Assembly (NCBI RefSeq): GCF_000227665.2
Contig: NZ_CP007030.1
Location: forward strand, 1,922,001 to 1,986,000
Length of the DNA: 64,000 nt
Reading direction: 5' to 3'
Source of the DNA: Thiomicrospira aerophila AL3
GTDB lineage: Bacteria > Pseudomonadota > Gammaproteobacteria > Thiomicrospirales > Thiomicrospiraceae
Below the pieces are notes generated by a model that searched no databases, was not told the DNA's origin, and saw only the letters and a list, made by a program, of their open reading frames with translations. Of this stretch, positions 14,517 to 33,646 are shown piece by piece. Every line of letters starts with the position of its first letter. The stretch's first letter is position 1. The translations under genes and the position numbers were made by a program.

Positions 14517-14532
14517 TACACGGGTGAATTAG

Positions 14533-15444: not shown

Positions 15445-15447
15445 AAA

Positions 15448-18048: not shown

Positions 18049-19529
18049 TCGGCCCTGAATAACTCACTCAAGCCATGATTTATAAGGGTTGAGCTTTAAT
18101 TTAGTGCTTTAAAAATTGCCAGTTTTAATATAATAATGATTTAATTTCTTGCAAATTGACACGCCTATGAAGCCCAAAACACCGCCCAAAAACCCCAACC
18201 AAGATTTGTTTCGACCCTTGTTGGTTGACATCATCAATCCTGAACATGAACTCGCCCGATTAGAAGGCCTCATCGACTGGGCGTTTTTTGAGCGTGAATG
18301 GGCCGGGTATTTCCCCTCAACCACTGGACGACCTGCGACCTCACCGCGTTTGATTGCCGGTTTGTTTTATCTGCAACATCTCTACGGCCACAGTGATGAA
18401 GGGGTATTGAGTGCCTTTTTGCAATCACCTTACTACCAGCACTTTTGTGGTTGTGTGCACTTTGAACATCAACTGCCGATTGACCCCAGTTCACTTGTGC
18501 GCTGGCGTAAACGGGTCGGTGAAGAAGGGTTAGAATGGTTACACACCCACAGCATTCAGGCGGCCGTCAACGCCAAGATGGTCAAGCCCAAATCCTTTGA
18601 AGAGATTCTGGTTGATACCACGGTCATGGAAAAAGCCATCACCCATCCAACCGACTCCAAGCTGTTAGAAACCGCACGACAACGCCTGGTTAAACAAGCC
18701 CAAGCGCAAGGCATCAACCTTCGCCAAAACTACAACAAAGTCGCCCCTAGACAAGCGATACAAACAGGCCGCTATGCGCACGCCAAACAATTCAAACGCA
18801 TGCGCCAAAGCCTCAAAAAACAACGCACCTACCTCGGGCGGATTGTTCGAGATGTAGAGCGTAAAGCGCAACAGATAACCGATGGGTTAAAGCATGAACT
18901 GAGTCTAGCCAAACGCCTACTCAGCCAAAAACCCAAGGACAAAAACAAACTCTACAGCCTGCATGCGCCGGAAGTCGAATGCATCGGTAAAGGTAAAAGC
19001 CGCAAACCCTACGAGTTCGGTGTGAAAGTCACTGTAGCGACCACCTTAAAAGAAGGCTTAGTGGTGGGGATGCGCAGCCTAGCGGGCAACCCCTATGACG
19101 GGCATACTCTACATGAAGCCTTAGAACAAAAAGAAATCCTCACCGACATGCCAACCAAACTGGTGTGTGTCGATAGAGGCTATAAAGGCCATTGGATTGA
19201 ACAGAGTAAGGTGCTGATAAGCGGCCAAAAGCGTGGCATGACCGCGAGCTTAAAGAGAAAGCTCAAACGCAGAAGTGCCATAGACGCGAGCATCGGGCAT
19301 ATGAAAACCGAAGGACGATTAGACCGTTGCACGCTAAAAGGACAGCTAGGTGATGCGATGTTTGCGCTGTTATGCGGTGCAGGTCACAATCTGCGGTTAA
19401 TCCTAAACTTCCTGCGGGATTTTTTGGCTTTTTTATGGACGGCTATCTGGCAAAGCGAATGGATTAAGGAAAACATTCGTACGAAAAAGCGCAAAATTAA
19501 AGTGGCTTGAGTGGGTTATTCAGGGCCGA
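18049..19529 (+). mobile_element. IS5-family-like insertion sequence, intact
   Basis: 1,481-bp element with 27-bp inverted repeats at 18049-18075 and 19503-19529 that differ at one position (each begins TCGGCCCTGAATAAC). It contains one full transposase gene. The bases outside the repeats (GTAA on the left, CTAA on the right) share only TAA, so a target duplication is doubtful. It interrupts an older IS3-family relic, whose end lies just to the right. Confidence 0.88.
18149..19510 (+). CDS. IS5-family DDE transposase
   Basis: 453 residues, full length. The N-terminal DUF772-type domain (GRPATSPRLIAGLFYLQHLY) is followed by PIDPSSLVRWRKRVGEEG and the DDE core: VDTTVMEKAI (first Asp), VCVDRGYKGHW (second Asp) and the MKTEGRLDRC segment (Glu). 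It is GC-richer than the surrounding cargo, so it arrived separately. The exact IS subgroup cannot be given without a database match. Confidence 0.93.
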   Translation: MQIDTPMKPKTPPKNPNQDLFRPLLVDIINPEHELARLEGLIDWAFFEREWAGYFPSTTGRPATSPRLIAGLFYLQHLYGHSDEGVLSAFLQSPYYQHFCGCVHFEHQLPIDPSSLVRWRKRVGEEGLEWLHTHSIQAAVNAKMVKPKSFEEILVDTTVMEKAITHPTDSKLLETARQRLVKQAQAQGINLRQNYNKVAPRQAIQTGRYAHAKQFKRMRQSLKKQRTYLGRIVRDVERKAQQITDGLKHELSLAKRLLSQKPKDKNKLYSLHAPEVECIGKGKSRKPYEFGVKVTVATTLKEGLVVGMRSLAGNPYDGHTLHEALEQKEILTDMPTKLVCVDRGYKGHWIEQSKVLISGQKRGMTASLKRKLKRRSAIDASIGHMKTEGRLDRCTLKGQLGDAMFALLCGAGHNLRLILNFLRDFLAFLWTAIWQSEWIKENIRTKKRKIKVA

Positions 19530-19658
19530 CTAAATACGTTTGAAAGCATCAAACAAGCGCAATTACTGGCAACTCAATGGTTATGGACATACAATAACGA
19601 ATGGGCACATACTGCAATCGGACAAGTGCAATCAAAAGAATTTATCGAAGCAACTTAA
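19530..19658 (+). pseudogene. 3' remnant of an IS3-family transposase (OrfB)
   Basis: The frame CTA AAT ACG ... reads NTFESIKQAQLLATQWLWT, then YNNEW, and ends with a TAA at 19656-19658. This is the conserved C-terminal segment of IS3-group OrfB integrases. Everything upstream is replaced by the IS5-type element, so only about 42 codons remain. Confidence 0.75.
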
Positions 19659-19840
19659 CCTTCTACTTTTGACTTCGGCTAAAATGTGGTGGTTACAGTC
19701 GACTATGCTAAGTTTAGACTTTTCTTACTCGAAATGTATAAAAATTAGCGGCTTTGCTATAAAGCACTAGGCCAATCGAATATTTTAATCGTTGAAATTT
19801 TATTTTTGTAACTAAATTTATATGGCGGGCTAAAGCACCA
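19659..19840. other. Non-coding gap before the ImmA/IrrE gene set
   Basis: AT-rich sequence between the IS3 relic and the membrane-protein gene at 19841. I see no convincing gene, hairpin terminator or promoter pair; it probably contains the promoter of the following three-gene set. Confidence 0.4.
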
Positions 19841-20464
19841 ATGAACAATGATAAGATAGATAGTATTTTTTTTAAAATTCTAAAATATATCAGCATTATT
19901 CTAGCCGTGTTTCTAGGTGTGCTATTTGCCACTTTAGTATTGACAAAATTCAATATCGACCCTGTTTCTTGGCTATTAAACACAGTTAAAGGAGTGTTCT
20001 ACAAACAGAACAGCCCCCTTACCATAGAAGAACAAGAAGCTTTAAGCCTGTTAATTAAAAATGGTCGAATTCTTCCATCTGATGGCATCATTACACAGGT
20101 AACCAGCTTTTACAGCACTATAATTACGTTTCTTCTTGGTTTAATAGCATTAATTTCTGGGATGGCATTTGTATATATAAAAGCCCAGTCCTATGAAAAA
20201 ATGGAAATTATGACTGAGAAAAAAGTTGAAGAGTACTTTAAAACTGCCGAGTTAACGGATAAGTTAGATATTTTGGTAAAAAGTAAGACTGAAGATATAA
20301 GACAAAACCTGAAACTAGATTTAGATGACTTCTCAGATTGGAAAGATAATATCGAAAATAGACTCAATACAGTGGAGGAACGAAACAATGGAAAATCCAT
20401 TTTCAGTAAATCGCCAACAATTTCGATACCCGATGGATACGATGAGGACGGAGAGAATAAATAA
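19841..20464 (+). CDS. Two-span membrane protein, first gene of ImmA/IrrE-beta set
   Basis: 207 residues. Hydrophobic spans lie at about residues 14-35 and 88-115, followed by a charged, probably coiled-coil C-terminal region (about 120-180) and a short acidic tail. I do not recognise a family. The stop overlaps the following ImmA/IrrE start (TAATG), and that gene in turn overlaps the beta-protein gene, so the three products are made together. It could be the membrane effector or anchor of a small defence system; this is inference from context. Confidence 0.75.
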   Translation: MNNDKIDSIFFKILKYISIILAVFLGVLFATLVLTKFNIDPVSWLLNTVKGVFYKQNSPLTIEEQEALSLLIKNGRILPSDGIITQVTSFYSTIITFLLGLIALISGMAFVYIKAQSYEKMEIMTEKKVEEYFKTAELTDKLDILVKSKTEDIRQNLKLDLDDFSDWKDNIENRLNTVEERNNGKSIFSKSPTISIPDGYDEDGENK

Positions 20465-20997
20465 TGGCTATTCTTCGAAGAAAATCAATTAGGAAAATTC
20501 ATGAAGCACCTACAAAGTTTAATGTTGAGAACCTTCTAAAAACAGCACGAGAACATGGCATTGATACTAACCCTATCGACATAAAAAAATTGGCAAGTTC
20601 TTTAGGCGTGCAGATTAAAAGCATAGAAATGGAAAATGAGGTATCTGGTTACCTAAGAAAAGAAGATGGACACTGGATTATAGGCGTAAATGCGTTACAT
20701 CATCCAAATCGAAAGCGCTTTACAATTGCTCATGAATTGGGTCATTATTGCCTTCACTCTAAAGTCATGGATTGCTTTGAGGATACCGTTTTATTCAGAA
20801 AAGGTGAAACAAACTTATATGAAACTCAAGCAAATAAATTCGCCGCTGAGTTATTAATGCCAAAAGATTTATTCTTAGACTATATAAGGAATAAGTCTTC
20901 AGAAATTGAAAGTATTGCTGAACATTTCGAAGTCTCTTCAATGGCAGTTCGGCTGAGAGCAAAGAATCTTGGGTTAGGAGGTCACGGAGTTGATTGA
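20464..20997 (+). CDS. ImmA/IrrE-family zinc metallopeptidase
   Basis: 177 residues, cytosolic. HELGH at residues 90-94 is the HExxH zinc site, with a third ligand expected in ETQANKFAAELLMP about 30 residues later, the standard ImmA/IrrE (DUF955) pattern. Such enzymes cut repressors or activate effectors in mobile elements, stress responses and toxin-antitoxin systems. There is no N-terminal helix-turn-helix, so its target would be separate. It overlaps the upstream membrane-protein gene by one base and the downstream beta-protein gene by 8 bp. Confidence 0.88.
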   Translation: MAILRRKSIRKIHEAPTKFNVENLLKTAREHGIDTNPIDIKKLASSLGVQIKSIEMENEVSGYLRKEDGHWIIGVNALHHPNRKRFTIAHELGHYCLHSKVMDCFEDTVLFRKGETNLYETQANKFAAELLMPKDLFLDYIRNKSSEIESIAEHFEVSSMAVRLRAKNLGLGGHGVD

Positions 20998-22111
20998 AAA
21001 ATACCAATACATTCCAATCATTAAAACTACCGATGCAGAACTTCGAGGATATGAAGAACTCGATGGGTCGGTAAAAGATGGTGTTTTGCCTTTGTTTGAA
21101 TTGACTAAATCTAGAAAATCTAAATATAACGTAGAAGCAACTGTGCACAAACGCATTGACTCACTTAAAGATATCGTTGGTGATCATAGACCGTTTATTT
21201 TAGATATTACATCTCATGAAGACCTCGCAAATGATGAAATTTACGAGTTCGGAGATGAAATAAACGGCTTTGATAATTGGTGTAGTTTTGTAGAAAGCTT
21301 TAGGGCTGATTTAAAATTAATCCCTGTAATACACATGCTTCCACCTGAAGAGCATTTAGATCATGAAATTAAGTCTCAAATTGAGAGATTAGCAGCAAAT
21401 TTTGAATATTTAGCATTTAGATATACACCATTTGATTTTGTTGATGATGGTTATATGACCACTAAAGATCTAGTCAACGAATTCACCCATTACATAGAAC
21501 TCATTAAAGGATCATTTGATATAGAAAAGCTCATTCTAGTAATTGATGGGCAATACATAGAAAAATCACTGTTTAATTCTAAAGTTTCAGTTATTAAAGA
21601 ATTACTATCAATATTTGAAAGCAATCGTCAGCCATGTAGAACATCAATTACAACCTCATCATTTCCATCCTATGTAAAAGGACATGAGGATGATTGCTAT
21701 GATGATTACGGAACGTTAACCATCCTTGAAAAAAGATTTTTTAGAACTATTTGCAATGAAGCGAAGATGAATTCCATCATTTATGGGGACTATGCAAGCA
21801 TTCACCCTGTTAGAAAAATACAAGGTGGGGGCAACTGGGTTCCACGAATAGATTTTCCATTATCTGAATCTATCATCTATAAAAGGTTTAGAAGGGATGA
21901 TGGCGGTTATGTAAGATGCGGTGAAAAAATGGCTGTTGAAACAAAGTTTCTATCTAACCCCAATCCCTGCTGGGGAGAAGAGCAAATTAAATTGGCATCT
22001 AAAGGTAAACCTCAAGGAAAAAGCCCTTCTTTTTGGATTTCTGTAAGATTAAATCTATTTATTTCAAGGTTATTCCTCGATGGCGAGCTCCCCATTTGCC
22101 ATGTTAAGTAA
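20990..22111 (+). CDS. Beta family protein (phage T4 beta-like)
   Basis: 373 residues. The N-terminus YQYIPIIKTTDAELRGYEEL and LPLFELTKS match the opening of the beta family (PF14350), predicted to form a TIM-barrel-like fold. These proteins are common in defence islands, and their activity is unknown. It starts ATTG-type: TTG at 20990 within an 8-bp overlap with the ImmA/IrrE gene (GGTCACGGAGTTG region), preceded by GGAGGT at 20978-20983. Its last 42 bp overlap the 3' end of the convergent sce7726 gene. Confidence 0.75.
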   Translation: MIEKYQYIPIIKTTDAELRGYEELDGSVKDGVLPLFELTKSRKSKYNVEATVHKRIDSLKDIVGDHRPFILDITSHEDLANDEIYEFGDEINGFDNWCSFVESFRADLKLIPVIHMLPPEEHLDHEIKSQIERLAANFEYLAFRYTPFDFVDDGYMTTKDLVNEFTHYIELIKGSFDIEKLILVIDGQYIEKSLFNSKVSVIKELLSIFESNRQPCRTSITTSSFPSYVKGHEDDCYDDYGTLTILEKRFFRTICNEAKMNSIIYGDYASIHPVRKIQGGGNWVPRIDFPLSESIIYKRFRRDDGGYVRCGEKMAVETKFLSNPNPCWGEEQIKLASKGKPQGKSPSFWISVRLNLFISRLFLDGELPICHVK

Positions 22112-22711
22112 CTGGATGTCATCAATGAGGGTTACATGGCCTCTATCTTTCAAGAATTGATTGAAGTTTGAGCTGTACTTATTAATCACTGTTTTTTTCA
22201 CCAGCTCAAGTGCTTCATTAATTGTTATATTTCGAACAAGAAGCTCCCTAGCGTCTTTAATGCCAAGACTCATTAAATTCTTACAATAAACTTTTTTTTC
22301 TCTTAAAACAGATTTAACCTCTTTAACGCCGATCATTTTTAGCAACGATAATTTACTAAGTTTTTTCTCAACTTTAGCCTGCCTATAAACCTGTATCTTT
22401 GAATCCTTGATTAAAAATACTCCAACATTTTCTGGGCAAATCCCAATAACACCATTCAAATGTTTTTGTGTCGTCACAATACTCACTGACTCAAAACATT
22501 CTAGATAGTTTGCGATCTGACCTGCAAGAGTCGAAAGACTGTCGAAATCACTCTTTATTTCAAACCCTTCTAATAATTCAGAAATACAAAGAATATCTGC
22601 TCGTCTATTCCCATCAGCGAATCTAAATTCAGGATTAATTACTTTTAAAGTATCACCATACTTCTCGATTAAATAATCAATTAAAGCCGCCTTTATAAAA
22701 GGTTCTTTCAT
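22070..22711 (-). CDS. sce7726 family protein (predicted PD-(D/E)XK nuclease-like)
   Basis: 213 residues, cytosolic. The N-terminal part has PEFRFADGNRRADILCI followed by EGFEIKSDFDSL, giving the Asp and Glu-x-Lys of a PD-(D/E)XK nuclease fold, which is the pattern of the sce7726 family. This family occurs with beta-type proteins in other genomes. Its 3' end overlaps the beta-protein gene by 42 bp on the opposite strand. It lies downstream of, and in the same direction as, the type III res gene. Nuclease activity is inferred from the motif. Confidence 0.78.
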   Translation of the reverse strand: MKEPFIKAALIDYLIEKYGDTLKVINPEFRFADGNRRADILCISELLEGFEIKSDFDSLSTLAGQIANYLECFESVSIVTTQKHLNGVIGICPENVGVFLIKDSKIQVYRQAKVEKKLSKLSLLKMIGVKEVKSVLREKKVYCKNLMSLGIKDARELLVRNITINEALELVKKTVINKYSSNFNQFLKDRGHVTLIDDIQLLNMANGELAIEE

Positions 22712-22754
22712 TTTTAGAATTCACTCACTTATTGTTGCTATCCTATCTGCCTGT

Positions 22755-22937
22755 TTACTTCTCAAAAACTGCTAAACCTTCAGAATTATTTAAATACTTT
22801 ATATACCTAAGACGCTTTAAATCAAATGGAATGTCATGAACATATTCCGGCCTAAATTGAACAGACAAACCAGATTGTGAAGCCGTATTTTGAATTGATG
22901 CAGAAATTCGATCTAAAGATGGAGCAAAAGAAATCAT
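22755..22937 (-). CDS. Short ORF, possibly an internally deleted TIR/nucleotide-binding-like protein
   Basis: 60 residues. The first half (MISFAPSLDRISASIQNTA) looks like the start, and the second half (FDLKRLRYIKYLNNSEGL) like the end, of the TIR-like or predicted nucleotide-binding proteins found in defence loci, which are normally much longer. It could be a deletion relic or a genuine small protein; I cannot decide. It lies between res and the sce7726 gene in the same direction. Confidence 0.4.
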   Translation of the reverse strand: MISFAPSLDRISASIQNTASQSGLSVQFRPEYVHDIPFDLKRLRYIKYLNNSEGLAVFEK

Positions 22938-22954
22938 TACTGAAACCTCACGAA

Positions 22955-25663
22955 CTAACTAATTAGATGTAAGATTTGCTGCCTAACATCACGCCCATCT
23001 TTATCTTGTTCAACGGCCATTATGAAAAGGCATTTTCCCCCACTCAGCTTAGCCCACAAGTCACCTACAGCCCGTTTCTCTGCCGAATCATCATTTGACA
23101 CGTAAGCTTCGCCTTTATATTCGACAACAAGCATTCTGCCGTCTTCAAGCTCACAAATGAAGTCAGGATAGAATTTGCCGTGCGCCAATGGAAGCCAAAA
23201 AGAAGACTGGTCTCTACGCACTAGATTGCGTATCCAATGTTTTATTTCGGGTAAACTATCAATAACCTTTGCACATTCATATTCCTCGCCACTGGTCTTT
23301 AAGTCTTCAATCATCCCTTGAGGAAAGTAGTGCTTTTGGAATTTGTATTTTCCAGTATAGTAGGGCGGTCTGGAAGGGTAGCTGCTTGGATTAAACTCAT
23401 AAATAAACTGGTCTGATACGCAGACGCTTGATTCATCACCAAATAACGTTTCTTGATATGCCGTCTTTTGTGCTTGTTTACGATAAATTCTGATTAAATC
23501 TCTAATCGCTCTTGCCAGAGGGAATTTGTTTCTAACCAACGCAGTTAAGGTCATGTTTGGCTGTTGTAGCAAACTTTTCACAATTCGTGATAAAAATGCA
23601 ATCATCTGGCTCTGAACAATGTCTGGTTGCTTTAGTTCACGGTCTAGCCAGCCAATTAAATCCTGCTCTGTAACGTCAAGAAAGCCTTGGTTAAATGTAA
23701 TCACGTTTTGTTGCTTGGATATGCCGTATGTCACCTCCGTTCCATCAATGTCGATAGAGAAGCTGTTACTGGTTTCATGTAAGCTAAAATTCTTTAGTTC
23801 AGCCGGATAATCCAACAAGTCCCAACCATGTGCATGAAGAAATACTTCGGACTCAACTAGGTCTAACTCACCCTGCTCTTGCATGCAAAGATATGGCAGT
23901 GATCCAAAGGGAATGCCTTTTTCTGACGGGGCTTTTTCAGCTTCTAATGCTTGATTGTGAATGCGAATATTTTGTTTAAATGCCTCCGTGCTTTTGCCGT
24001 TCTTGACATGCTTTGTCAACGCTTTCTCGATGCTCTCGGAAACTTCTCCGGTAATCCTAACAACGGTAGTATTGGTTTGCGAATCATGAGACATACTAAT
24101 TCGCCCCTTTTCATCATCAGATAAAGAAGTTAAATCAGGCGTACTTTGGGTTTCAACAACAAGTGACTTCGATACCCTCACCGGTTTAATCTGTAGTTCT
24201 TCATCACCAGCGCCAAACATGTCCTGCTGGTCTGGATTATGGATACCTGGCGTTGCTTCTCTCAAGAAAGCGGCAACCTCCATTTCCTCAAAACCCATTG
24301 CAATCAGTTTGTCGGTCAAGTCCTGCGCGGCTTTACTGAACTTTGAAGTGGAGAGGTGTGCGTAAGCACGGTTAAGGTCTTCTATCAGTCTTCTTTTGGC
24401 ATAAGGCATCCTTAAAACACGCCCTAGCAGTTGTTCGGCATCTTTGCTTGATGAAACTTGCTTAACAGAACAAAAAACGTAAGCAAACGGACAGTCCCAG
24501 CCTTCTTTCAACGCCTCAATTGTAATGATGTATTCAATTTTGCAATTTGGCGAAAACAAGTCTAGACCATCAAGCTCCCGTTGATTGCCGGTAGCTATAG
24601 CAATTTTCTCTTCATGGATGTTGAGCTGATCCATTAGGTGCGTCTTCAAAACATCAACCGTTACTTCGCCACTTTTGTTTTCTGCTTGAAATAGAGCAAT
24701 AGGTCGAATGTAATCCGCATCCTTTTGAGCATCAATAGCAAGCTTGTTTCGGGTGATAACAGCATCTTGAATGGCGTCTTGCCAGTTTTGATGTTCCGTG
24801 AGCATTACCGGCAACTTAATCATTTCTTCGGCTTTCAGCTCAGAAGCGGATACATGAAATAAAACATTGCTTCCATTAGTCTTACTGGTGTTAGGTGTGG
24901 CGGTAAGCTCAATGATTGCAGAGGGGTGGACGCGCTGCAAGACTTCAAATGTTAACGTGGTTCTGGCGTTGTGAGCTTCATCCATAATCACAATCGGTCG
25001 GTGGATAGCAAGAAGATTGGCAAACGAGTATTTAATCTTCCCAATCGCTGAATTGCTTAAACCATTTTCTTGAACATCATCCGCCGATACCTTTTCAAGA
25101 CGAGATATTAACGGGTGGTTTGCTGGTATTTTGGCAAAATGCGGCTCAAAGTTTTCATGATAGGCATAAATTTTTCGCCCGGAGGTATCTGTGACACGCA
25201 GGTTCGCCAGCGTGGAAACAATAACGATTGCCTTGTTCTCAAGGTCTTGTGGCCGAACCTGAGTGACTTCATCAATATCTAAAACTAACACCTGTCTTTT
25301 AAAGGCTTCATCTAGTTTTTGACGGTATGGGTGACTTGGTTTTTTTAGGGCTTCAACGGTTTGTTCTCGAATCGTGATACTTGGTACAAGCCACAAAGCA
25401 ATCGGTGTTTCGGTATCAAGCAAGCTCTTTGATGCAACATCAATCGCATAGGAGCCAAGAACGGTTTTACCGCCCCCTGTGGGTATTCTTAAACAGACAT
25501 AAGGTACTTGTTTAAAACCATAGTCTCGATACTCAAACTCAGGTAATTCTTGTTCTTCAAGTGCTAATCGGTATGCCTCTTCAACATCATTGTCGAGGCA
25601 CTTGGTTAGGAATGATTGCAGAACATCAACGGCACGTTGTTGGTAGCCTTTTAATTGAAACAT
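22955..25663 (-). CDS. res: Type III restriction endonuclease subunit Res (DEAD/DEAH helicase-nuclease)
   Basis: 902 residues. Walker A lies in RIPTGGGKTVLGS (residues 59-71), the DEAH-type motif is VIMDEAHNART, and motif VI region is SSKDAEQLLGRVLRMPYAKR, all of superfamily 2 helicases. The C-terminus has FYPDFICELEDGRMLVVEYK, a PD-(D/E)XK nuclease site (Asp and Glu-x-Lys). In type III systems the Res subunit translocates along DNA after ATP hydrolysis and cuts unmethylated DNA. The mod gene lies upstream in the same direction but is separated by a gene on the other strand. Confidence 0.9.
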   Translation of the reverse strand: MFQLKGYQQRAVDVLQSFLTKCLDNDVEEAYRLALEEQELPEFEYRDYGFKQVPYVCLRIPTGGGKTVLGSYAIDVASKSLLDTETPIALWLVPSITIREQTVEALKKPSHPYRQKLDEAFKRQVLVLDIDEVTQVRPQDLENKAIVIVSTLANLRVTDTSGRKIYAYHENFEPHFAKIPANHPLISRLEKVSADDVQENGLSNSAIGKIKYSFANLLAIHRPIVIMDEAHNARTTLTFEVLQRVHPSAIIELTATPNTSKTNGSNVLFHVSASELKAEEMIKLPVMLTEHQNWQDAIQDAVITRNKLAIDAQKDADYIRPIALFQAENKSGEVTVDVLKTHLMDQLNIHEEKIAIATGNQRELDGLDLFSPNCKIEYIITIEALKEGWDCPFAYVFCSVKQVSSSKDAEQLLGRVLRMPYAKRRLIEDLNRAYAHLSTSKFSKAAQDLTDKLIAMGFEEMEVAAFLREATPGIHNPDQQDMFGAGDEELQIKPVRVSKSLVVETQSTPDLTSLSDDEKGRISMSHDSQTNTTVVRITGEVSESIEKALTKHVKNGKSTEAFKQNIRIHNQALEAEKAPSEKGIPFGSLPYLCMQEQGELDLVESEVFLHAHGWDLLDYPAELKNFSLHETSNSFSIDIDGTEVTYGISKQQNVITFNQGFLDVTEQDLIGWLDRELKQPDIVQSQMIAFLSRIVKSLLQQPNMTLTALVRNKFPLARAIRDLIRIYRKQAQKTAYQETLFGDESSVCVSDQFIYEFNPSSYPSRPPYYTGKYKFQKHYFPQGMIEDLKTSGEEYECAKVIDSLPEIKHWIRNLVRRDQSSFWLPLAHGKFYPDFICELEDGRMLVVEYKGEAYVSNDDSAEKRAVGDLWAKLSGGKCLFIMAVEQDKDGRDVRQQILHLIS

Positions 25664-25757
25664 TTGAATAAATCCGAGTTAAAGTGTGACTCAATGATAG
25701 ATTTATTTGTATTTTACAAAATCTATATCTATTTAACTAAAGCATCATAAAAAATAA

Positions 25758-26576
25758 ATGGCTTTTATGACGATTTACTGGAAAAATGAAGCAAAACTAG
25801 CAGCTATAGAATGGGCTGCTAAAAAGTTGAGATATTCTATTGATAGACTCAATATGAATTCTAGAGGAATTACTGAATCATTAGATGACAAAATCATGGG
25901 AGACTTGGCAACCATCGCTGTCGCGGAATTTTTCAGGTCCAGTGGTTTTGCAGCAATTGCTTATGATCAAATTCGAACAGATAATTTTCAAACACCTGAT
26001 CCCGGCTGGGATTTATTAATTTCAAAGCGAGGCATCGGCCTTGGACCTTGGGCAAGAAAGGTTCAATCTCTTAAAATATCGCCTGACGACATTCCTGAAT
26101 ATGCGGTGACTGTCTCCGTTAAATCCTCTAGATTACCAAGAGGATATAACCTAGAGAAAGCACTAAAACGATGTGATTTTAAGGTACTTAATGAGCATGA
26201 TAATAACATAGCTAAAGACCTTAAAGCACAAATAGAGACACAGGTTTATTTTGACCTCAACAAGTCTCAGTTAAATGGCTTAAGAATAATTGATGAACAC
26301 ATAGATGAAGCCTGTAAAGATACAATCGAAGATAGGAGTAATTGCTCCATCATTTTCGATCAACTCCAGATCGAACACAGGTATATTCCTTGTATATTAA
26401 CTCGCTGGAATTATTCAGGAAAAATACTGGATTACTCCAACAACCTTGCTAAGCAAAATAAAAAACGGACTTGGAATAGCCCTCATGACGGGGAAACCAA
26501 GTCCATGTGGCTGGCTCCTTTAAGAGAAGGAAAGTCATTTCATGAAATACACGAAATTTTTGAGCATCTCCCCTAA
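25758..26576 (+). CDS. Unknown protein encoded antisense between mod and res
   Basis: 272 residues, no signal or membrane span. I do not recognise the family. A possible PD-(D/E)XK-like arrangement is visible: AVAEFFRSSGF, then PDPGWDLLISKRG, then AVTVSVKSSRLP. The third position is Ser-x-Lys instead of Glu-x-Lys, so nuclease activity is uncertain. The gene is on the plus strand while mod, res and the XRE regulator are on the minus strand. It is convergent with mod (14-bp gap) and divergent from res (94-bp gap). It may be an accessory nuclease, a specificity modulator or a later insertion. Confidence 0.72.
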   Translation: MAFMTIYWKNEAKLAAIEWAAKKLRYSIDRLNMNSRGITESLDDKIMGDLATIAVAEFFRSSGFAAIAYDQIRTDNFQTPDPGWDLLISKRGIGLGPWARKVQSLKISPDDIPEYAVTVSVKSSRLPRGYNLEKALKRCDFKVLNEHDNNIAKDLKAQIETQVYFDLNKSQLNGLRIIDEHIDEACKDTIEDRSNCSIIFDQLQIEHRYIPCILTRWNYSGKILDYSNNLAKQNKKRTWNSPHDGETKSMWLAPLREGKSFHEIHEIFEHLP

Positions 26577-26590
26577 AACGCACTAACCGC

Positions 26591-28108
26591 TTAAAACAGG
26601 CCAACATCATAAGGTATTTGCTTAAAAATAATATTGGCTTGTTTTAAGCTATCGCCACCTAACCGACAAGATTCACCATAAATTACAATTTTTTCATGTT
26701 TAGAGACATTAGGAAGTTCGTTTAGAACCTTTCGAGTTAGTACGTTCCCACCACTTGGTCTTCTATCTCCAAGAACACCATTATAAAGAAGGTAGTACGC
26801 TGTTCCGCCATGACATCCTAAAAACGGAGACGGTTCAGTTATATGGATTGGCTTTTTAGTTTCCAAATACCAAATATGAGCAGCAAGAATCGGAAATTTT
26901 ATTTCAGGGTTAATCGAGCCGTACTCATTGAATACCATCTCACCTAATTCATAAAACTTAAAACCTCCACCTCCAGACCAATTTAATGACTTAGAGATCC
27001 CACCCTGTTCCCCATTAACGACTTGCTTTAGTCTATTCTGACAATGAGTCTTTGCATGGTCTCCTATCTCGACACCGATATATCTGCGCTTCATCTTATG
27101 AGCAACAGCTGCGGTAGTACCAGAACCTAAAAAAGAATCTAGAACCAAATCATTTTCTTCAGATGCAAGGGTTAGTATTCTTTGAATAAGCTTTTCAGGT
27201 TTCGGAGTCGCAAAAGCATCGTCTGGATTAAACAATCTGGATTCTTTTTTTGCTTCCTGATTATGTCCAACCTCTTGATACGGCCATATAGTCATCGGAG
27301 TGGTGCCATCCTTTACCTCTGTCAAAAATTTTTTAACAGCAGGGACATTATTTCCACTTTGACCAAACCAAATCCTATTATCTTTAACCATTTCCTCATA
27401 ACGCTCTTTAGAATACCCCCAACAACGGCTTGCTGAGGGCTTTACAACACGTCCTGATGGAACGGTAATAGGGTAATCGTTAGACTCTGAATATGTCTTT
27501 ACAGACATATCTGCTGCTTTCCAAGGTCCTCTAGGATCGTTATCGGGGTTTTTATACCTAGAATTTGCCTCATCACTTCTTGGAAGTAGATTTGGCCTCC
27601 AAGCCTCTTTATTTTTAGCATAAACCAGAATGTGGTCGTGATTGTCGCTAAACCATTTGGCATCATTTTGCGGTGCATACTTTTTTTGCCACACAATATT
27701 GGCTACAAAATTATGACGCCCAAAAATTTCATCCATAACTACTTTTAAATAGTGAGATTCATCGTCATCAATAGAAATCCAAATAGAGCCATTCTCCGAT
27801 AATAGTTCTGCGAGTAATTCCAACCTTGGGTACATTAAGGAAAGCCACTTACTATGCTCTAAATTATCATCGTAATGCTCAAATGCGCCTTTAGTGTTGT
27901 AAGGAGGATCAATAAAGATACATTTAACTTGTCCTGCATAGTATGGAATCAGTGCTTTAAGAGCCTCAAGGTTATCCCCTTGAATCAGCATATTATTGGA
28001 ATCTACCTCACCATAAGAAAACTCCGACTTTTCTTGTAATAGACGATAGCGACAATTCTTAGCATCCAAAAGAGATTCATCTTTATTTAGCCACTGTAAA
28101 ATAGGCAT
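26591..28108 (-). CDS. mod: Type III DNA-methyltransferase subunit Mod (beta-class, adenine-N6 type)
   Basis: 505 residues. Motif IV DPPYNTKG (DPPY residues 67-70) precedes motif I DSFLGSGTTAAVAHK (about residue 320), the beta-class order typical of type III Mod proteins. The target-recognition region should lie between them (about 150-290). The C-terminal 130 residues are unusual for Mod and may be a separate domain. The short length (many Mod are 600 or more) is notable. It should modify one strand of an asymmetric site, and protects DNA from Res. Confidence 0.88.
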   Translation of the reverse strand: MPILQWLNKDESLLDAKNCRYRLLQEKSEFSYGEVDSNNMLIQGDNLEALKALIPYYAGQVKCIFIDPPYNTKGAFEHYDDNLEHSKWLSLMYPRLELLAELLSENGSIWISIDDDESHYLKVVMDEIFGRHNFVANIVWQKKYAPQNDAKWFSDNHDHILVYAKNKEAWRPNLLPRSDEANSRYKNPDNDPRGPWKAADMSVKTYSESNDYPITVPSGRVVKPSASRCWGYSKERYEEMVKDNRIWFGQSGNNVPAVKKFLTEVKDGTTPMTIWPYQEVGHNQEAKKESRLFNPDDAFATPKPEKLIQRILTLASEENDLVLDSFLGSGTTAAVAHKMKRRYIGVEIGDHAKTHCQNRLKQVVNGEQGGISKSLNWSGGGGFKFYELGEMVFNEYGSINPEIKFPILAAHIWYLETKKPIHITEPSPFLGCHGGTAYYLLYNGVLGDRRPSGGNVLTRKVLNELPNVSKHEKIVIYGESCRLGGDSLKQANIIFKQIPYDVGLF

Positions 28109-28149
28109 ATTCCTTCCTTTTCTTAAAATAATTGGCCAAGTTAAACGAC

Positions 28150-28485
28150 TCAGACTCTGTCATAGCAATGAGCAATCAAACTTTTCATATTCTTTAAAGT
28201 CTTAACCAAAGCCTTTTCGGACTCTTTACTCCCGTCCCATAAATCCATCAAAGCCTCTTTTAGCTCTTGGGATAGCTGAACCCTGTCATTTGAATAAATT
28301 TGAATATTTGCATATTCACATATTTTTTTTACATTAGGAGAAACTGTCTTAAAATTCCCAGATAAAATTTTAGAAATCTGCGACTGTGAAACGCCTGTAA
28401 CCATAGATATATCTTTTTGAACATCTGTAATATTTGTGGCCCAAGCGATTAACTCCTTACGAATAACAGCTACACCTTTATCCAT
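28150..28485 (-). CDS. XRE-family transcriptional regulator
   Basis: 111 residues from ATG 28485 (a TTG at 28494 would add MLK). The helix-turn-helix is in ISMVTGVSQSQISKILSG, about residues 29-46. The C-terminal 50 residues are helical and charged. It precedes mod in the same direction and is divergent from the ASCH-domain gene. The 90-bp intergenic region holds repeated TTTGAATA motifs that are candidate binding sites, so it may control both the R-M operon and the ASCH gene. Confidence 0.82.
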   Translation of the reverse strand: MDKGVAVIRKELIAWATNITDVQKDISMVTGVSQSQISKILSGNFKTVSPNVKKICEYANIQIYSNDRVQLSQELKEALMDLWDGSKESEKALVKTLKNMKSLIAHCYDRV

Positions 28486-28498
28486 TTTTAGCAACTTA

Positions 28499-28528
28499 TT
28501 TGAATATTTGAATATTTATTTGTATAAT
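28499..28528 (+). promoter_or_regulatory. Promoter for the ASCH gene with repeated TTTGAATA operator
   Basis: A -35-like TTGAAT (28500-28505) and a perfect TATAAT (28523-28528) are exactly 17 bp apart. TTTGAATATT is directly repeated across the -35 and the spacer (starting near 28499 and 28508). The XRE gene on the other strand begins 15 bp away, so binding at the repeats could control both directions. The promoter is read from sequence; the regulator is inferred. Confidence 0.65.
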
Positions 28529-28574
28529 ATCTAAAAATTTCAACGACATCAACATTTGAAAACGGTGGGTAAAT

Positions 28575-28952
28575 ATGAAAGTTCTACTCTCGATAAAGCC
28601 TCAGTTCGCAGAAAAAATCTTAACGGGCGAAAAGCAGTTTGAGTTCAGAAAGGCCATATTCAGAAATAATTGCGTTACTTCAGTAGTTATTTATGCATCC
28701 AGCCCTTTGCAAAAGGTCATAGGGGAGTTTGATATTTCTAAAATATATGAAATGGAGCCTGATGCTTTATGGAAAGAGACAGCCGATCACTCAGGGATAA
28801 GTAAAGAATATTTCGATAAATACTTTCAAGGTAAGATGAAAGGCTTTGCGATTAAAGTAGGAAAAATGACAAAGTACCCGACACCTCTCAACTTAGAGGA
28901 CTTGGGCATTAGAACTCCGCCTCAATCTTTTTGCTATGTAAGAAAGCATTAA
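28575..28952 (+). CDS. ASCH-domain protein
   Basis: 125 residues with MKVLLSIKPQFAEKILTGEK and QFEFRKAIF at the start and CYVRK at the end, typical of the ASCH/PUA-like fold that binds RNA or modified nucleotides. Some relatives are RNases or N4-acetylcytidine hydrolases; no specific activity can be claimed. It is divergent from the XRE regulator and has a strong sigma70-type promoter, with AACGGTGGG near the start codon. Confidence 0.82.
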   Translation: MKVLLSIKPQFAEKILTGEKQFEFRKAIFRNNCVTSVVIYASSPLQKVIGEFDISKIYEMEPDALWKETADHSGISKEYFDKYFQGKMKGFAIKVGKMTKYPTPLNLEDLGIRTPPQSFCYVRKH

Positions 28953-29188
28953 GGGCTTATAAAATCAATAATTAGCGGAATATTTTCTTGTTCAGAAGTT
29001 ACTTTTAATAATGGAAGGTTTAAGCAACTAGCCACCGCTTTTGCCTGAGATATCTCCAAGTCTGGAACTCTTCTATCAACTTCAAATCAAACAGCTGTCC
29101 TCTGCGCCCTTCCAGCCTACTTCTTATAACTTCAGGAGATTGTGTCCACTTCCCCTAAAATTAGTTAATCGAGGTACCCTTTAATTAA
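28953..29188. other. Gap with possible gene debris
   Basis: No full gene. On the minus strand a stretch of about 45 codons ending at 28949 reads VDRRVPDLEISQAKAVASC and so on, without a start codon, and a second frame overlaps it. Both look like debris of an older gene but cannot be assigned. Confidence 0.3.
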
Positions 29189-29482
29189 TCACTTCAACAT
29201 ATCAAAATACTTTTCAAGATTAGGGTACGCCATTGGTTCTTGATCAACTGACTCTATTGGCTGTAGTCCGAGTTGACTAAATACTTCTGACAACTTTCTA
29301 CCTGCCTTAATCCAGTCAAGACTTCTTCCTAATTCAAGCTGACGAAGCTGCCAAATATTGCAATCTATCAATCGAGCCATTTCTTGATCAGAAGCATTTG
29401 TAAGTTTTTTTATGATCAAAATCACCGCACCAAGCCTGGCAGCCCGAGTGTTTTTTGTTCTCATTAAAGTCATATTAGACAT
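29189..29482 (-). CDS. Hypothetical small helix-turn-helix-like protein
   Basis: 97 residues. The segment NASDQEMARLIDCNIWQLRQLE resembles a helix-turn-helix, with a basic N-terminus (TLMRTKNTRAARLG). I do not recognise a family. It stands alone between the ASCH and DUF6338 groups on the minus strand. The 271 bp before the next gene hold no further gene that I can support, though a GC-richer patch near 29660-29750 looks like debris of another element. Confidence 0.6.
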   Translation of the reverse strand: MSNMTLMRTKNTRAARLGAVILIIKKLTNASDQEMARLIDCNIWQLRQLELGRSLDWIKAGRKLSEVFSQLGLQPIESVDQEPMAYPNLEKYFDMLK

Positions 29483-29753
29483 AGATTTATCTCAATTAAG
29501 TTAGCGGCTTAAGTCATAAAGAAAATTTGAATTTAGAAGCTTTCTTAGAGCATGTTTTCAGCTCACAAATAGCACAACGCTAAAAAAGACACGCTAATTC
29601 ACTTAACAACCATTACAGTATCATTAATGACATATTTACCAAAACATAGTAATACTAATTATCGCAAGAATCTAGTCGTGCCGGATCAACAGCGCCAGAC
29701 CTTGCCGTACTCTTATTATTCGATGATCCTGAACAAATCCACTCAAGTCGCTC

Positions 29754-29885
29754 TCATCGATTTGCATTTGTTTTCTTTGGTTGAGGAGGCGGTGGTGGTG
29801 AGCTTGGTCTTCCCCTTAGCTCACCACTGTTAACCGGTTTTATATTTCCTTTTGTATAACCCTCTTGAAGACTCTTATCACTCAT
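29754..29885 (-). CDS. 43-residue proline-rich micro-protein B of the DUF6338 group
   Basis: Found by reading the minus strand from ATG 29885 to TGA 29754. It begins MSDKSLQEGYTKGN and ends with a polyproline stretch PSSPPPPPQPKK. It is preceded by GGAGAAG at suitable spacing. It shares its layout with the gene 24 bp upstream: MS(D/E)K start, a Tyr near residue 10, glycine-rich middle and RP-x-SPPP tail. Small, probably unstructured; function unknown. Similar tiny proline-rich ORFs are, to my recollection, often found next to DUF6338 genes. Confidence 0.68.
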   Translation of the reverse strand: MSDKSLQEGYTKGNIKPVNSGELRGRPSSPPPPPQPKKTNANR

Positions 29886-29909
29886 AACACTTCTCCATTA
29901 TATTCAAAG

Positions 29910-30035
29910 CTACTTGTTAGGTTTTGGTGCTGGCGGCGGCGAAACAGGTCTAGTATTTTTTTCCGGCTGAGATGTTGAGCGCTCTACACCACCCTTAACA
30001 TGCCCATAATTTTTTACAACATTCTTTTCACTCAT
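29910..30035 (-). CDS. 41-residue proline-rich micro-protein A, coupled to DUF6338
   Basis: Runs from ATG 30035 to TAG 29910, beginning MSEKNVVKNYGHVKGG and ending RPVSPPPAPKPNK. Its start overlaps the stop of the DUF6338 gene by 8 bp (ATGAGTGA), with AAGGAG inside the DUF6338 gene at good spacing. Such overlap and ribosome site strongly suggest a real, translationally coupled gene. It is followed after 24 bp by a paralogue-like 43-codon gene. No known function; a binding tail for another protein's SH3-like domain is one possibility. Confidence 0.75.
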   Translation of the reverse strand: MSEKNVVKNYGHVKGGVERSTSQPEKNTRPVSPPPAPKPNK

Positions 30036-30693
30036 GACCGGACTCCTTCGTCTTAGAAAAATTCTCTTTAGGAACGTACTCAATTAAAAACTCACCTACT
30101 TTTTTTGATAGATAGATTTTGGGCACAGAATAATATTCTTGCGAGTCTTCATACCCATAGACAATAACATCACACAATACCAACTCTTGAATCGATTGGT
30201 TTTCAGAAAAAGATAAGATTCTTCCCTCGTAAGTCAGGTTTCGAGACTGATCCCTTACATATACCCAGTCAGCATCTCGCGCGTTTAAAAAATAACTAAA
30301 TAAGTTCTCATCTCCATACTTGAATGAAACGTGTAAAAAGCTTGCCAATTTATTAATTATCTTATGATTAATTATTGCGGCTACAACAAACCCAAGCGGA
30401 ACAGAAAACACAGTTGCCCAAAAGACCTCTAACATTGAAAATTTTGACGTTGAGTCCAGAATAAAATTCCATACCAACAAATATTCATACTCATCTGGAA
30501 TAATGAAAAATGCTTGAACAATCAAATCAATCATTTGCAATCCTGTATAAGACAGAAGGCCGAGTACAAAAGAGTATATGCCATACTTTAAAACACCCCA
30601 TGGTTTTGCGTGAGTCGTAATTCTCTCTGAAATTACCGCTGATATTAGCCCCGGAAAAAATATCAAACCAATTAGAACAGCAAACTCAGTCAT
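30028..30693 (-). CDS. DUF6338 family membrane protein
   Basis: 221 residues. Three membrane spans are evident (about residues 3-22, 34-56 and 85-115). The C-terminal cytosolic domain starts near ADWVYVRDQSRNLTYEGRI and has a small beta-barrel look (repeated short strands, ending SVPKIYLSKKVGEFLIEY), typical of DUF6338. Function is unknown; members occur in defence-rich regions. The two micro-proteins downstream are very probably part of the same unit. Confidence 0.8.
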   Translation of the reverse strand: MTEFAVLIGLIFFPGLISAVISERITTHAKPWGVLKYGIYSFVLGLLSYTGLQMIDLIVQAFFIIPDEYEYLLVWNFILDSTSKFSMLEVFWATVFSVPLGFVVAAIINHKIINKLASFLHVSFKYGDENLFSYFLNARDADWVYVRDQSRNLTYEGRILSFSENQSIQELVLCDVIVYGYEDSQEYYSVPKIYLSKKVGEFLIEYVPKENFSKTKESGHE

Positions 30694-30757
30694 TATTTAC
30701 TCATCCTAAATTTTCTTAACAACAACCATTTCAACAAAGTCCCCAAGAGTCGCTCCA

Positions 30758-32392
30758 TTAACTAAACCCAGAGGACATCAAGTTCTTCAGCTTTTGTGCC
30801 AGGTTCTTGGGGTGCTTAAATACTTTAACTTGCCCCAAATGATCTTCCAAAGAGTTTTTCGCCTTGAGTAATAACCCTTGTTCGTCTTTAATGCACTTCA
30901 TTAAGTTGTAAACTAAGTCACATTCAAGTAAGCCTTTTGGAGAGCTAAACATTAATCCACGATACTTATCACTTACTGTTCTAGGCTGAATTTCAACAAA
31001 GTAAAACTGTTTCCCGTCATATTTCACTTTTATAAGAGCTATCTTTCGATAGGTAATAGCATACTCAGGAGGGAATACATTTTTAATCTTCTTCCGTGTC
31101 ATCTGATGCCAGAGTATTTTTCCTTCATCTTTATCGCCATCACGAGTAAATGAAATTCCAAAAAATGCACCGGGTTCCATTTCATAAATAGAATCATTGC
31201 AACCTAAGACAGCGTAACCTTTCATCTTCTCATCTGAAGCCTTAAGTATTTCCAGAGATTCAATGAATTCCTTTTCAATACCTGACGCTTTTTTGTCTGA
31301 AGCCTTTGCTGTCTTCAACTTGCCAATTTTGTCGTTGTCAGAAAACTCACTACCTGAAGAAAACTGTTCTGGTTCATTTGCATCTTTATCTCGAGGGGCT
31401 GGAATAGGCTCTTTTCGCTCCACTACAGTCTCGGTTACTATGTTTGAGTCATGCACAACAACACCTGATTCAATGTATTGGGTATTACTACCCACACCTG
31501 GTGGAATTGAATTTTGAACATAGATTTCGTCATGTTCTGTGATTTTGGAATTTGGCTTGCGGCCAACATTAGGCTTATTGGGTTTGCTGGTGATTTCTTC
31601 CTTTACCTGAACTAAAGGTATATCAGTCGGAGTTCTAAATTTATTTATTCTATGTACAAAGATTACCCCATTATTTTCTTCATAAGCGGCTTCAAAAGAC
31701 AGTTTATTCGGGTGGTAAGGAATGGCATCAATAAAACGGCGACCCCGATTAATCTGGGAGCGAATTTTTGATAAGCGCTGACGTGTAACGTGATGATTCG
31801 CAATATAAGCTAGAAATACAGCATTAGATCGCTCAAAACCCTTTGGAAGAATATACTGCCCATTAATCATACCTTGCTGATCTTTCGGCACGAAGTTGTC
31901 TACAACACCATCCAGATCAAAGTTCAATAAAGCTCTACGAATATTTTTGTTTTCAGGAGTATAAAGAGAAGTGAATATTTCTAAAGATTGTACGTAAACA
32001 ACTTTTCCTGTCGTTGTTAAAAGTTTAGCTACACGTGTTTTACCAATTTCCTGATCAGCCGGATAGATATTTATTAGCTGATAGAGATCGAAAAACTCAA
32101 CTTGCTGGCTAGAAAGGTCAAATTCTAGCCATCCATTTTGTAGAACCTTATTGTCTTTAAGCTCATTTTGAATGCCAAAACTTCCCCTCCAAACGCTGCC
32201 TATACGCAACACATCAAGCTCTGAAATGGCCGCTGTAGAGTACTCAATCTGACCACAAGAAACTCTTCTGAAAGCAATAGTAACCAATGGATTTGAGCGG
32301 TCAGATGTGTTTTGTTTAACACTACAAAAAGCTCTTACAACTCTTTCGATGTTGTCACTGAATAACGTTTCTATATGGAAAGTTTTAGCCAA
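30758..32392 (-). CDS. tnsE: TnsE-like transposition targeting protein
   Basis: 544 residues, close to the 538 of Tn7 TnsE. Several stretches line up by eye with remembered TnsE sequence in the same order: WLEFDLSSQQVEFFDLYQL, then VYVQSLEIFTSLYTPENKN, an unstructured charged middle (about 265-360), and a C-terminal domain with YFVEIQPRTVSDKYRG and VKVFKHPKNLAQKL. In Tn7, TnsE directs insertion into replicating DNA by binding the sliding clamp and DNA ends. Here it is alone at the far tip, about 110 bp from the last end repeat and pointing inwards, far from tnsABC. The homology needs a profile search. Confidence 0.68.
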   Translation of the reverse strand: MAKTFHIETLFSDNIERVVRAFCSVKQNTSDRSNPLVTIAFRRVSCGQIEYSTAAISELDVLRIGSVWRGSFGIQNELKDNKVLQNGWLEFDLSSQQVEFFDLYQLINIYPADQEIGKTRVAKLLTTTGKVVYVQSLEIFTSLYTPENKNIRRALLNFDLDGVVDNFVPKDQQGMINGQYILPKGFERSNAVFLAYIANHHVTRQRLSKIRSQINRGRRFIDAIPYHPNKLSFEAAYEENNGVIFVHRINKFRTPTDIPLVQVKEEITSKPNKPNVGRKPNSKITEHDEIYVQNSIPPGVGSNTQYIESGVVVHDSNIVTETVVERKEPIPAPRDKDANEPEQFSSGSEFSDNDKIGKLKTAKASDKKASGIEKEFIESLEILKASDEKMKGYAVLGCNDSIYEMEPGAFFGISFTRDGDKDEGKILWHQMTRKKIKNVFPPEYAITYRKIALIKVKYDGKQFYFVEIQPRTVSDKYRGLMFSSPKGLLECDLVYNLMKCIKDEQGLLLKAKNSLEDHLGQVKVFKHPKNLAQKLKNLMSSGFS

Positions 32393-32482
32393 TACTGCAC
32401 CTCCTCGAATAAAAAGGGGCGCAAACCAAAATATTTAGTGATGAACCTTGATGAAGAAAGCCTAAGAATTTAACGAGAAAGC

Positions 32483-32528
32483 TGTAGCATAATCTTTTGT
32501 AATGTAGCAAAAACCGTTGGAAATACCA
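32483..32528. repeat. Transposon right end: terminal repeat and two TnsB-type sites
   Basis: Read on the minus strand from 32528, the end begins TGGTATTTCCAACGG and contains TTTTTGCTACA (32503-32513) and ATTATGCTACA (32483-32493). Two sites here against four at the other end gives the asymmetry typical of Tn7-like elements. Confidence 0.85.
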
Positions 32529-32533
32529 CCCAC
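32529..32533. repeat. Target-site duplication CCCAC, right copy
   Basis: Second copy of the 5-bp duplication (first at 11761-11765), in the codons for the glycine-rich stretch VIGGG of YifB. Confidence 0.9.
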
Positions 32534-33370
32534 CGCCAATGACCGCTGCAGCCGATGACGAATGATGCGGCGCTTGCCAAGGTCGATTCAAAAACTGGGC
32601 AGCGGTGATTCGCTGCCCAGCTAAGGAATGCAGTTGAGCGACTTCCAACGCCTCATCACGATTTAGCGGCGGCAACAAACTGACCAAACGTTGCGCCAGC
32701 ATACTTTTACCCGCCCCTGGTGGGCCAACCATTAATAACGAATGATGACCACTCGCGGCGATTTCAAGAACGCGCTTCGCTTGCGCCTGACCTTGAACAT
32801 CGCCTAGATCAAATGGATAGTCTTGCACCATAGGGGTTGTGGTTGGCAATGGATTGAGTTGCGCCTCACCAGTAAGGTAATCGCAGAGTTGGCGTAAATT
32901 ATCGGCTAAACCGCAATGCGCATAATCTAATAAGCAGGCCTGGTCAGCCAAGTCCGCTGGCAATACCAGTTTATTACCTGCCTTGGCACCGGCGACCAGT
33001 GCCGGCAACAAACCTTGGCAGCTACGAACCTGTCCTTCCAGCCCCAACTCGCCATAAAACTCGTGCCCGTCAAGGCGTGCTGCGGCTAATTGCCCAGTGG
33101 CCACCAAAATACCCAATGCAATACCCAAATCAAAACGGCTACCCGACTTGGGTAAGTCAGCCGGGGCAAGATTGATGGTAATCCGCTTCGGCGGTAAGTC
33201 AAAGCCGCTGTTTAGAATGGCACTGCGCACGCGGTCTTTACTTTCTTTAACCGCGGCCTCTGGCAAGCCCACCAGGGTTAGACTGGGCAAACCATTGGCG
33301 GCATGGACTTCAATGGTGACCCGTTCAGCGGCAAGGCCCGTTTGGGTACGACAATAAACCCGCGCGACAC

Positions 33371-33646
33371 TCAAACGGATTGTTCACCTGATGACGTGGT
33401 CGCCTCGGTGGCTTGCTCAAAAGCCGCCAACTTCGCTTCCAGCGTGTCTAATTTAGCGCGTGTTTTTGCTAGAACTTGTTGCTGAATTTCAAACTCCTCA
33501 CGCGTGACGAGATCCATTTCGTGCAAGGCCTGCTGAATTTTAGCTTTCACTTGCGCTTTAAATTGTTCAGGCGCTTGACCGACCTCAGCCGGAATCGCGT
33601 CTAGTACTTGTTTGACAATGCCATCTAGGTGCTGTGGATTAAACAT
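33371..33646 (-). CDS. ubiK: UbiK-family accessory factor for ubiquinone biosynthesis
   Basis: 91 residues, all helical, of the YqiC/BMFP family: N-terminal amphipathic helix (MFNPQHLDGIVKQVLDAIP), then the conserved VTREEFEIQQQVLAKTRAKL coiled coil. In E. coli UbiK binds UbiJ and helps the aerobic ubiquinone pathway, possibly at the membrane. It lies directly upstream of yifB with a 4-bp overlap. Confidence 0.88.
   Translation of the reverse strand: MFNPQHLDGIVKQVLDAIPAEVGQAPEQFKAQVKAKIQQALHEMDLVTREEFEIQQQVLAKTRAKLDTLEAKLAAFEQATEATTSSGEQSV

Follow-up and report, generated by a model that had tools for sequence, protein, structure and literature searches.

A probable, highly diverged TnsE at the tip of a comM-inserted Tn6022-type transposon in Thiomicrospira aerophila

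We analysed a stretch of 64,000 nucleotides from Thiomicrospira aerophila AL3 (hereafter the window), in which a Tn7-like element of 20,763 bp interrupts comM. Its boundaries are given by a target-site duplication (TSD), by terminal repeats and by the two flanks, which on rejoining yield an open ComM frame of 502 aa (Table 1). The termini read TG...CA, the short repeats inside both ends are probable TnsB sites, and ComM is cut between IGGG and QTPRPG, a little ahead of the stretch that we read as Walker B. The transposition module consists of tnsA, tnsB, tnsC, tniQ and a fifth gene whose product is 28% identical (E 2.5e-53) to TnsF of a Tn6022-type element on the Acinetobacter baumannii plasmid pTY918A and has conserved Cys residues; together with TniQ, this TnsF is presumed to be the selector of comM, a role taken from the available text of Faure et al. 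(PMC10293859). The part of the cargo at window 19841-28108 is of the defence type, with a CapP-like peptidase, beta- and cll-like proteins and a type III restriction-modification pair. Cargo also seems to move between different elements, because a 221-aa gene beside tnsE (window 30028-30693) has a 60% identical relative in an element that occupies a second site of comM in another genome, G028.

Table 1. Features of the transposon and TnsE-like genes of related groups (window positions, except where a locus label is given)
Feature	Position	Strand	Evidence or remark
Whole Tn7-like (Tn6022-type) transposon	11766..32528	.	TSD, terminal repeats, open ComM when flanks joined
Target-site duplication CCCAC, tnsA side	11761..11765	.	
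Target-site duplication CCCAC, tnsE side	32529..32533	.	
tnsA-side end	11766..11900	.	TGCTACA repeats starting at 11785, 11839, 11861, 11892
tnsE-side end	32483..32528	.	TGTAGC repeats starting at 32483, 32503
comM 3' half	11098..11760	-	Pfam Mg_chelatase, Mg_chelatase_C; junction
comM 5' half	32534..33374	-	Pfam ChlI, Mg_chelatase; junction
tnsA	11924..12640	+	PF08722 4.6e-17, PF08721 1e-5
tnsB	12597..14516	+	PF09299, PF00665
tnsC (TniB-like AAA ATPase)	14533..15444	+	PF05621 9.5e-57
tniQ	15448..16521	+	PF06527 1.2e-19
tnsF (tniE/orf3)	16522..17940	+	Match to tnsF of Tn6022-type element, pTY918A
IS5-family transposase gene, between tnsF and cargo	18149..19510	+	NCBIfam transpos_IS5_1 1.9e-155
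Cargo: CapP-like peptidase, beta and cll-like genes, type III restriction-modification pair, others	19841..28952	.	Pfam, PADLOC
tnsE-like gene, 544 aa, inward-facing, 136 bp from element end	30758..32392	-	ORF; hhalign to canonical TnsE
Motif YVQSLEIFTSLYTP, residues 133-146, aligned with IPQLELARxLF	31955..31996	-	hhalign alignment
TnsE-like frames, comM second-site elements	L086:1654-3453 (G028), L097:2700-4517 (G401)		
TnsE-like genes, lipA elements	L035:5685-7364 (G013), L037:7976-9619 (G035)		

At the opposite tip lies a single gene that starts with TTG just downstream of GGAGG. The initial annotation had placed this gene facing inward, about 13 kb from the transposition module, which agrees with the 12.8 kb measured from its end to the end of tnsF, and about 110 bp from the element end, a distance that has to be corrected to that of the start codon in Table 1. 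The open reading frame is genuine: another genome of the family has a full-length relative, 75% identical, at the corresponding tip, and more distant ones are found in other classes and phyla. The relatives were gathered from genomes and plasmids (4 plasmid records) and are uncommon; matches were found in 9 of 62 genomes of the host family and in 2 of 369 genomes drawn from the class, the T. aerophila genome itself being included in both counts, and none appeared in two scans of viral contigs or in the first genome scan. The gene is broken in G413, where it lies beside the comM 5' half on a short contig, and split in G431, where it is on another contig than tnsF. A TnsE-like gene is also present on the Aliarcobacter plasmid pCNAC48 (L008:14800-16593), and a search of this 162-kb record at E 1e-3 found nothing related to the window tnsABC, tniQ or tnsF.

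Searched as a single sequence, the tip protein matched no Pfam family and no relevant PDB sequence, and its one NCBIfam hit was insignificant; a profile search of the PDB (profile A1) found no chain, and AlphaFold2 with four sequences gave a pLDDT of 30.5. The similarity to TnsE comes from profile-profile comparison. An alignment of nine tip proteins (A3), among which only those of the window and G031 are more than 60% alike, was compared by hhalign with ten canonical Tn7 TnsE proteins (A2; plasmids supplied nine and genome G177 one, and two of the ten are 93% alike), and residues 122-541 of the window protein matched TnsE residues 105-537 with a probability of 95.7%, E 8.7e-9 and a score of 77.2. 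This is beyond chance, as the highest score among 200 column shuffles of A2 was 25.9 and A2 reversed reached 14.3; moreover, the N-terminal part matches TnsE by itself (34.8, with 100 shuffles at most 24.2), and so does the C-terminal part (45.0, with 100 shuffles at most 19.5).

Canonical Tn7 TnsE (PF18623; PDB 5d16, 5d17 and 9d5l) is similar in length to the window protein and can be aligned with it over the region given above; however, identity is about 11%, the window gene lies outside any tnsABCDE operon, and a conserved motif is altered. Canonical TnsE proteins strongly conserve IPQLELARxLF, which we take to be the sliding-clamp-binding motif, and the window sequence YVQSLEIFTSLYTP falls beneath it in the alignment; SLEIF stands under PQLELAR, which is not kept, the window protein reading VQSLEIF. 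None of the nine tip proteins matches the TnsE_C model PF18623, a model that does detect the canonical TnsE of G177. The TnsE of Tn6022 was likewise detected only weakly according to the available text of Faure et al. (PMC10293859), so the miss reflects the limited reach of the model, a match to which does not define the TnsE family. The gene is encoded in a Tn7-like element alongside TnsABC, and the earlier reading of TnsE-like stretches in its product is borne out by the profile comparison with its shuffle controls and by membership in the published Tn6022 group (PMC10293859, as far as its text is available). We consider it highly probable that the tip gene encodes a strongly diverged TnsE, which would act as second target selector for this Tn7-like transposon of the Tn6022 type.

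The membership itself follows from the layout: TnsABC, TniQ and TnsF occur together, comM is entered near the Walker B region with a 5-bp TSD, and a remote tnsE lies near the other end on the opposite strand. In the part of Faure et al. 2023 available to us (PMC10293859), TnsE is described in Tn7 relatives and in Tn6022-type elements; in the latter its gene is remote from the others, close to the left end and on the opposite strand, and the protein is less than 10% identical to the TnsE of Tn7 and closely similar to it in predicted structure. The remote arrangement is, to that extent, already published for Tn6022-type elements, and the same authors propose conjugative plasmids as the target of this TnsE. 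A review, in its available text (PMC11406308), calls TnsE almost universal in comM-targeting elements and states that Tn6022 reaches conjugal plasmids "presumably with TnsE"; Benler et al. (PMC8649781, available text) report plasmid insertions of elements with no identifiable tnsE and name weak conservation as one of several possible reasons.

Tn6022/AbaR of Acinetobacter shares with the window element its gene set, the comM target, the 5-bp TSD and the opposite-strand tnsE at the other end, and its remote TnsE is probably the "orf4" of the Acinetobacter literature; in the accessible part of a 2026 paper (PMC12904642), orf4 is 26-28% identical between elements whose tni genes are 56-76% identical. 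Compared with the Tn6022-type element of pTY918A, the TnsA, TnsB, TnsC, TniQ and TnsF proteins of the window are 26-38% identical and TnsE is 20% identical, with other cargo and another host. The Tsy elements, which combine TnsF with a tyrosine recombinase in comM, have the TnsF selector and the comM target in common with the window element; in contrast to it, with its tnsABC and tniQ, their neighbourhood has no Tn7 components in the available account (PMC10293859).

Position was followed across relatives from the side of tnsF. In the 62 genomes of the host family, tnsF was found in six genomes at seven places, and five of these have an inward-facing tnsE on the same contig (the window, G001, G031, G403 and G028); the two others are a 6.1-kb contig of G022 that ends at tnsF and a second tnsF fragment in G031. 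This fragmentary tnsF-like gene (G031:C1:1378764-1379825) is far from the complete element of that genome, for which no TSD pair was found. In G001, G031, G192, G433, G028, pTY918A and a Methylobacter plasmid, tnsE is at most 200 bp from the comM 5' half or the element end. A scan of genomes with TnsF alone gave eight named loci, and seven of the eight genomes so selected have TnsE, the exception being a Sulfurimonas metagenome-assembled genome (MAG). In Geomonas, Marinobacter and an Alcaligenaceae MAG, 10-16 kb separate tnsF from a tnsE on the other strand, and past tnsE the comM 5' half is reached within 1 kb. These surveys follow the initial suggestion to look for the same gene at the same tip of comM-inserted elements; an inward tnsE near the end was found in many relatives.

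The accompanying idea, that cargo is sandwiched between the two modules, describes many elements but not all of them. In Sulfurimonas and a relative (loci L063 and L065), tnsE adjoins tnsF tail to tail with a gap of less than 20 bp, and in Sulfurovum (L066) the gap is about 0.4 kb. The comM 5' half at L063 is 27 kb beyond tnsE, and therefore cargo lies outside tnsE there; a rule that TnsE occurs only at the tip was dropped after this locus. L065 has nearly the same TnsF and TnsE as L063 and different genes beyond tnsE, which may be cargo or flank; this element is not in comM, an open comM frame of 510 being present on another contig. G403 and the plasmid pC13-2 each have one gene outside tnsE. 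Cargo is usually, not always, between the two modules.

The same layout extends to Tn7-like elements in which tnsF was not recognised. Elements of G401 and G028 cut comM at a second position, have tnsABC-tniQ at one end and gave no match to the window tnsF; each carries an inward TnsE-like frame of about 600 codons, 1.5 kb inside the end in G401 (TSD GCTGT, ends 24/30 alike) and 0.13 kb inside it in G028 (TSD GTTGT, ends 22/30). The G401 locus contains two TnsE-like genes of different groups in tandem (L097:2700-6855), the second, of the lipA type, being split into two open frames. In G013 and G035 the layout is found beside the 3' end of lipA (identified by NCBIfam with E 7e-128 and 4e-129), with an inward TnsE-like gene at the tip and tnsABC-tniQ several kilobases away; the G013 element has the TSD ACAGC and ends 22/30 alike, and for G035 no TSD with good terminal repeats was found. 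For both groups the presence of a TSD was a condition of the search, as it was for three of the elements outside comM described below. The four TnsE-like proteins of G401, G028, G013 and G035 score 125.7 against A3 and 63.3 (probability 93%) against canonical TnsE, where 100 shuffles reach at most 23.7. A whole-word literature search found no paper joining Tn7, lipA and TnsE, and the main texts of Faure and Benler do not mention "lipA"; even so, Faure et al. may have included the second-comM-site and lipA elements in their count of TnsE loci.

Two targeting routes had been proposed for the window element, one to comM by TniQ and the fifth gene and one to replicating or conjugating DNA by TnsE. 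The second route gains indirect support from relatives with the gene, delimited at eight sites outside comM with 5-bp TSDs, seven of them on plasmids, which suggest use of a target other than comM; these insertions come from relatives, and none was seen for the window element. Three elements were delimited by requiring identical 5-bp duplications and ranking the candidates by similarity of the ends, competing pairs reaching at most 13: on pTY918A (TSD TTTAT, ends 19/30 alike), on the Methylobacter plasmid (AGTGC, 24/30) and on the chromosome of G028 (CATGC, 23/30). The G028 copy sits between open frames, and comM of this genome is occupied by a different element at another position. The Methylobacter protein was at first taken for one without Tn7 genes, a reading given up because that plasmid also carries tnsC, tnsB and tnsA at a distance of 26-29 kb; the tnsF there is annotated as several fragments and forms a single open frame of 493 residues.

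Relatives of the pTY918A TnsE were found in 150 plasmid records, in 123 of them over at least 80% of the length; 75 of the 150 are conjugative plasmids, a proportion that has no baseline and is not counted as evidence. We chose and read 13 of these records, and the 12 with a readable left flank gave seven distinct insertion sites. Both ends were located by sequence at six of the seven Acinetobacter-type plasmid sites, and all six have identical 5-bp TSDs; these six, with the Methylobacter plasmid and G028, make up the eight delimited sites. For pC13-2, a ninth element outside comM, the ends were not found. On pAC29b (L099 near 600) the site is that of pA85-3, but about 20 bases of the transposon end are repeated outside the end. 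Outside tnsE, pC13-2 has a gene annotated with a SAVED domain (L111:40224-41395), in a Tn6022-type element with copper-resistance genes near a mobF relaxase gene. None of the eight sites stands out as comM-like when compared with the window comM site (local scores 7-11, with shuffles reaching 13-17), whereas scores of 20-120 were obtained for three comM sites in the same comparison; two plasmid sites are at the upper edge of the shuffles, 10 and 14 of 300 being as high.

Five sites fall within one plasmid family with one parA (253 records, 250 typed conjugative), and there tnsE and parA run in opposite directions in eight of eight records and at five of five distinct sites, the records being those of our choice. 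CP072400 and CP110467 agree in tnsE orientation, their insertion sites being unassigned to distinct ones, and so does pC13-2, which is of a different subfamily and has its TnsE by profile (185.8 bits). By the arithmetic of a single orientation, five of five corresponds to p = 0.06 two-sided and six of six to 0.03. TnsE in Tn7 gives a fixed orientation, and the shared orientation at the five sites would be as expected of TnsE. Targeting by this TnsE, and the mechanism by which it would find its target, we infer from Tn7.

Whether tnsE belongs with the transposition genes or with the homing genes was approached by Mantel comparison of 12 elements carrying all six genes. TnsE distances correlate with those of TnsABC (r 0.89; partial given TniQ-TnsF 0.82, p 0.0002), and the partial correlation with TniQ-TnsF given TnsABC is 0.10 (p 0.18); with ranks, the partials are 0.40 (p 0.005) for TnsABC and 0.23 (p 0.04) for TniQ-TnsF, ranging on leaving out one element from 0.33 to 0.52 and from 0.06 to 0.54, respectively, and becoming about equal (0.52 and 0.54) when pTY918A is left out. 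Single pairs illustrate the exchange. Between the window and G031, TnsA, TnsB and TnsC are 86, 90 and 92% identical and TnsE 74%, but TniQ is 40% and TnsF 42%; between the window and G001, TniQ is 51% and TnsF 65%, but TnsABC is 34-40% and TnsE 23%, and both TnsABC and TnsE of G001 are closest to pTY918A. G028 is a partial exception, with TnsABC 55-57% and TnsE 20% identical to the window. From these distances, TnsE appears to share the inheritance of TnsABC, which lies up to 30 kb from it, to a greater extent than that of the exchanged TniQ-TnsF.

We propose that TnsA, TnsB and TnsC would move the element, and that TniQ and TnsF would direct it into comM, its present site. TnsE would recognise a structural feature of DNA in replication, with lagging-strand synthesis on conjugatively transferred DNA as the likeliest candidate, and would recruit TnsC, allowing entry into conjugative plasmids, and occasionally into other chromosomal sites, in a fixed orientation. 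Its gene would have come to lie at the tip through the usual gain of cargo between tnsF and tnsE. We infer the activity of TnsE, its binding to fork structures and its part in causing the insertions outside comM.

This proposal must be weighed against others. The tip gene could be cargo, for example a defence gene that came to lie at the tip by chance, considering that defence genes fill the cargo and that a related protein stands apart from recognisable tns genes on the Aliarcobacter plasmid; however, the tip protein has no PADLOC match, is homologous to TnsE over most of its length, keeps a near-end place in many relatives, is present in seven of the eight TnsF-selected genomes and is co-inherited with TnsABC, and we regard this origin as very improbable. 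It is also conceivable that the protein is a TnsE homologue by descent that no longer selects targets, the plasmid copies being products of leaky TniQ-TnsF or of a gain-of-activity TnsC. A gain-of-activity allele that broadens targeting has reportedly been described for A. baumannii Tn6022. Leakiness can be read from the available text of Faure et al. (PMC10293859), whose reconstitution used TnsABC, TniQ and TnsF: with a helper lacking TnsE, comM took 96.7-97.4% of insertions, a few percent falling elsewhere. Against such a loss of selection, tnsE is open over its full length in most relatives (G413 and G431 excepted), it follows TnsABC, the plasmid insertions are in one orientation with exact TSDs, and the TnsE of Tn7 is known for events of this kind in the accessible part of the review (PMC11406308); the loss seems to us quite unlikely.

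A TnsE that is active but directed to another structure than conjugating DNA, such as double-strand breaks or the replication terminus, would fit the G028 copy in a chromosomal site between open frames, and Tn7 TnsE also uses features of termination and break repair (PMC11406308, available text). Seven of the eight sites outside comM are on plasmids, which speaks against it, though plasmid records were searched most, and we consider it unlikely. Our preferred reading remains a TnsE that would direct the element to replicating, probably conjugating, DNA.

A wider view can be proposed, to which we give about an even chance: an inward, highly diverged TnsE at the tip may be a general design of several Tn7-like lineages beyond Tn6022, the second-comM-site and lipA groups included. 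It would be a part of the core machine that descends together with TnsABC over long stretches of cargo, the TniQ-TnsF homing cassette being the portion exchanged, and it would send elements into conjugative plasmids in one orientation, as a main route of AbaR-type islands to plasmids. Beyond what is in print, our analysis adds evidence that the second route is used and that TnsE belongs to the core machine. The natural insertions collected here make the proposal that TnsE of Tn6022-type elements leads to plasmids directly testable, through orientation and target dependence, and the exchange of TniQ-TnsF against TnsABC and TnsE shows which parts of these transposons behave as modules.
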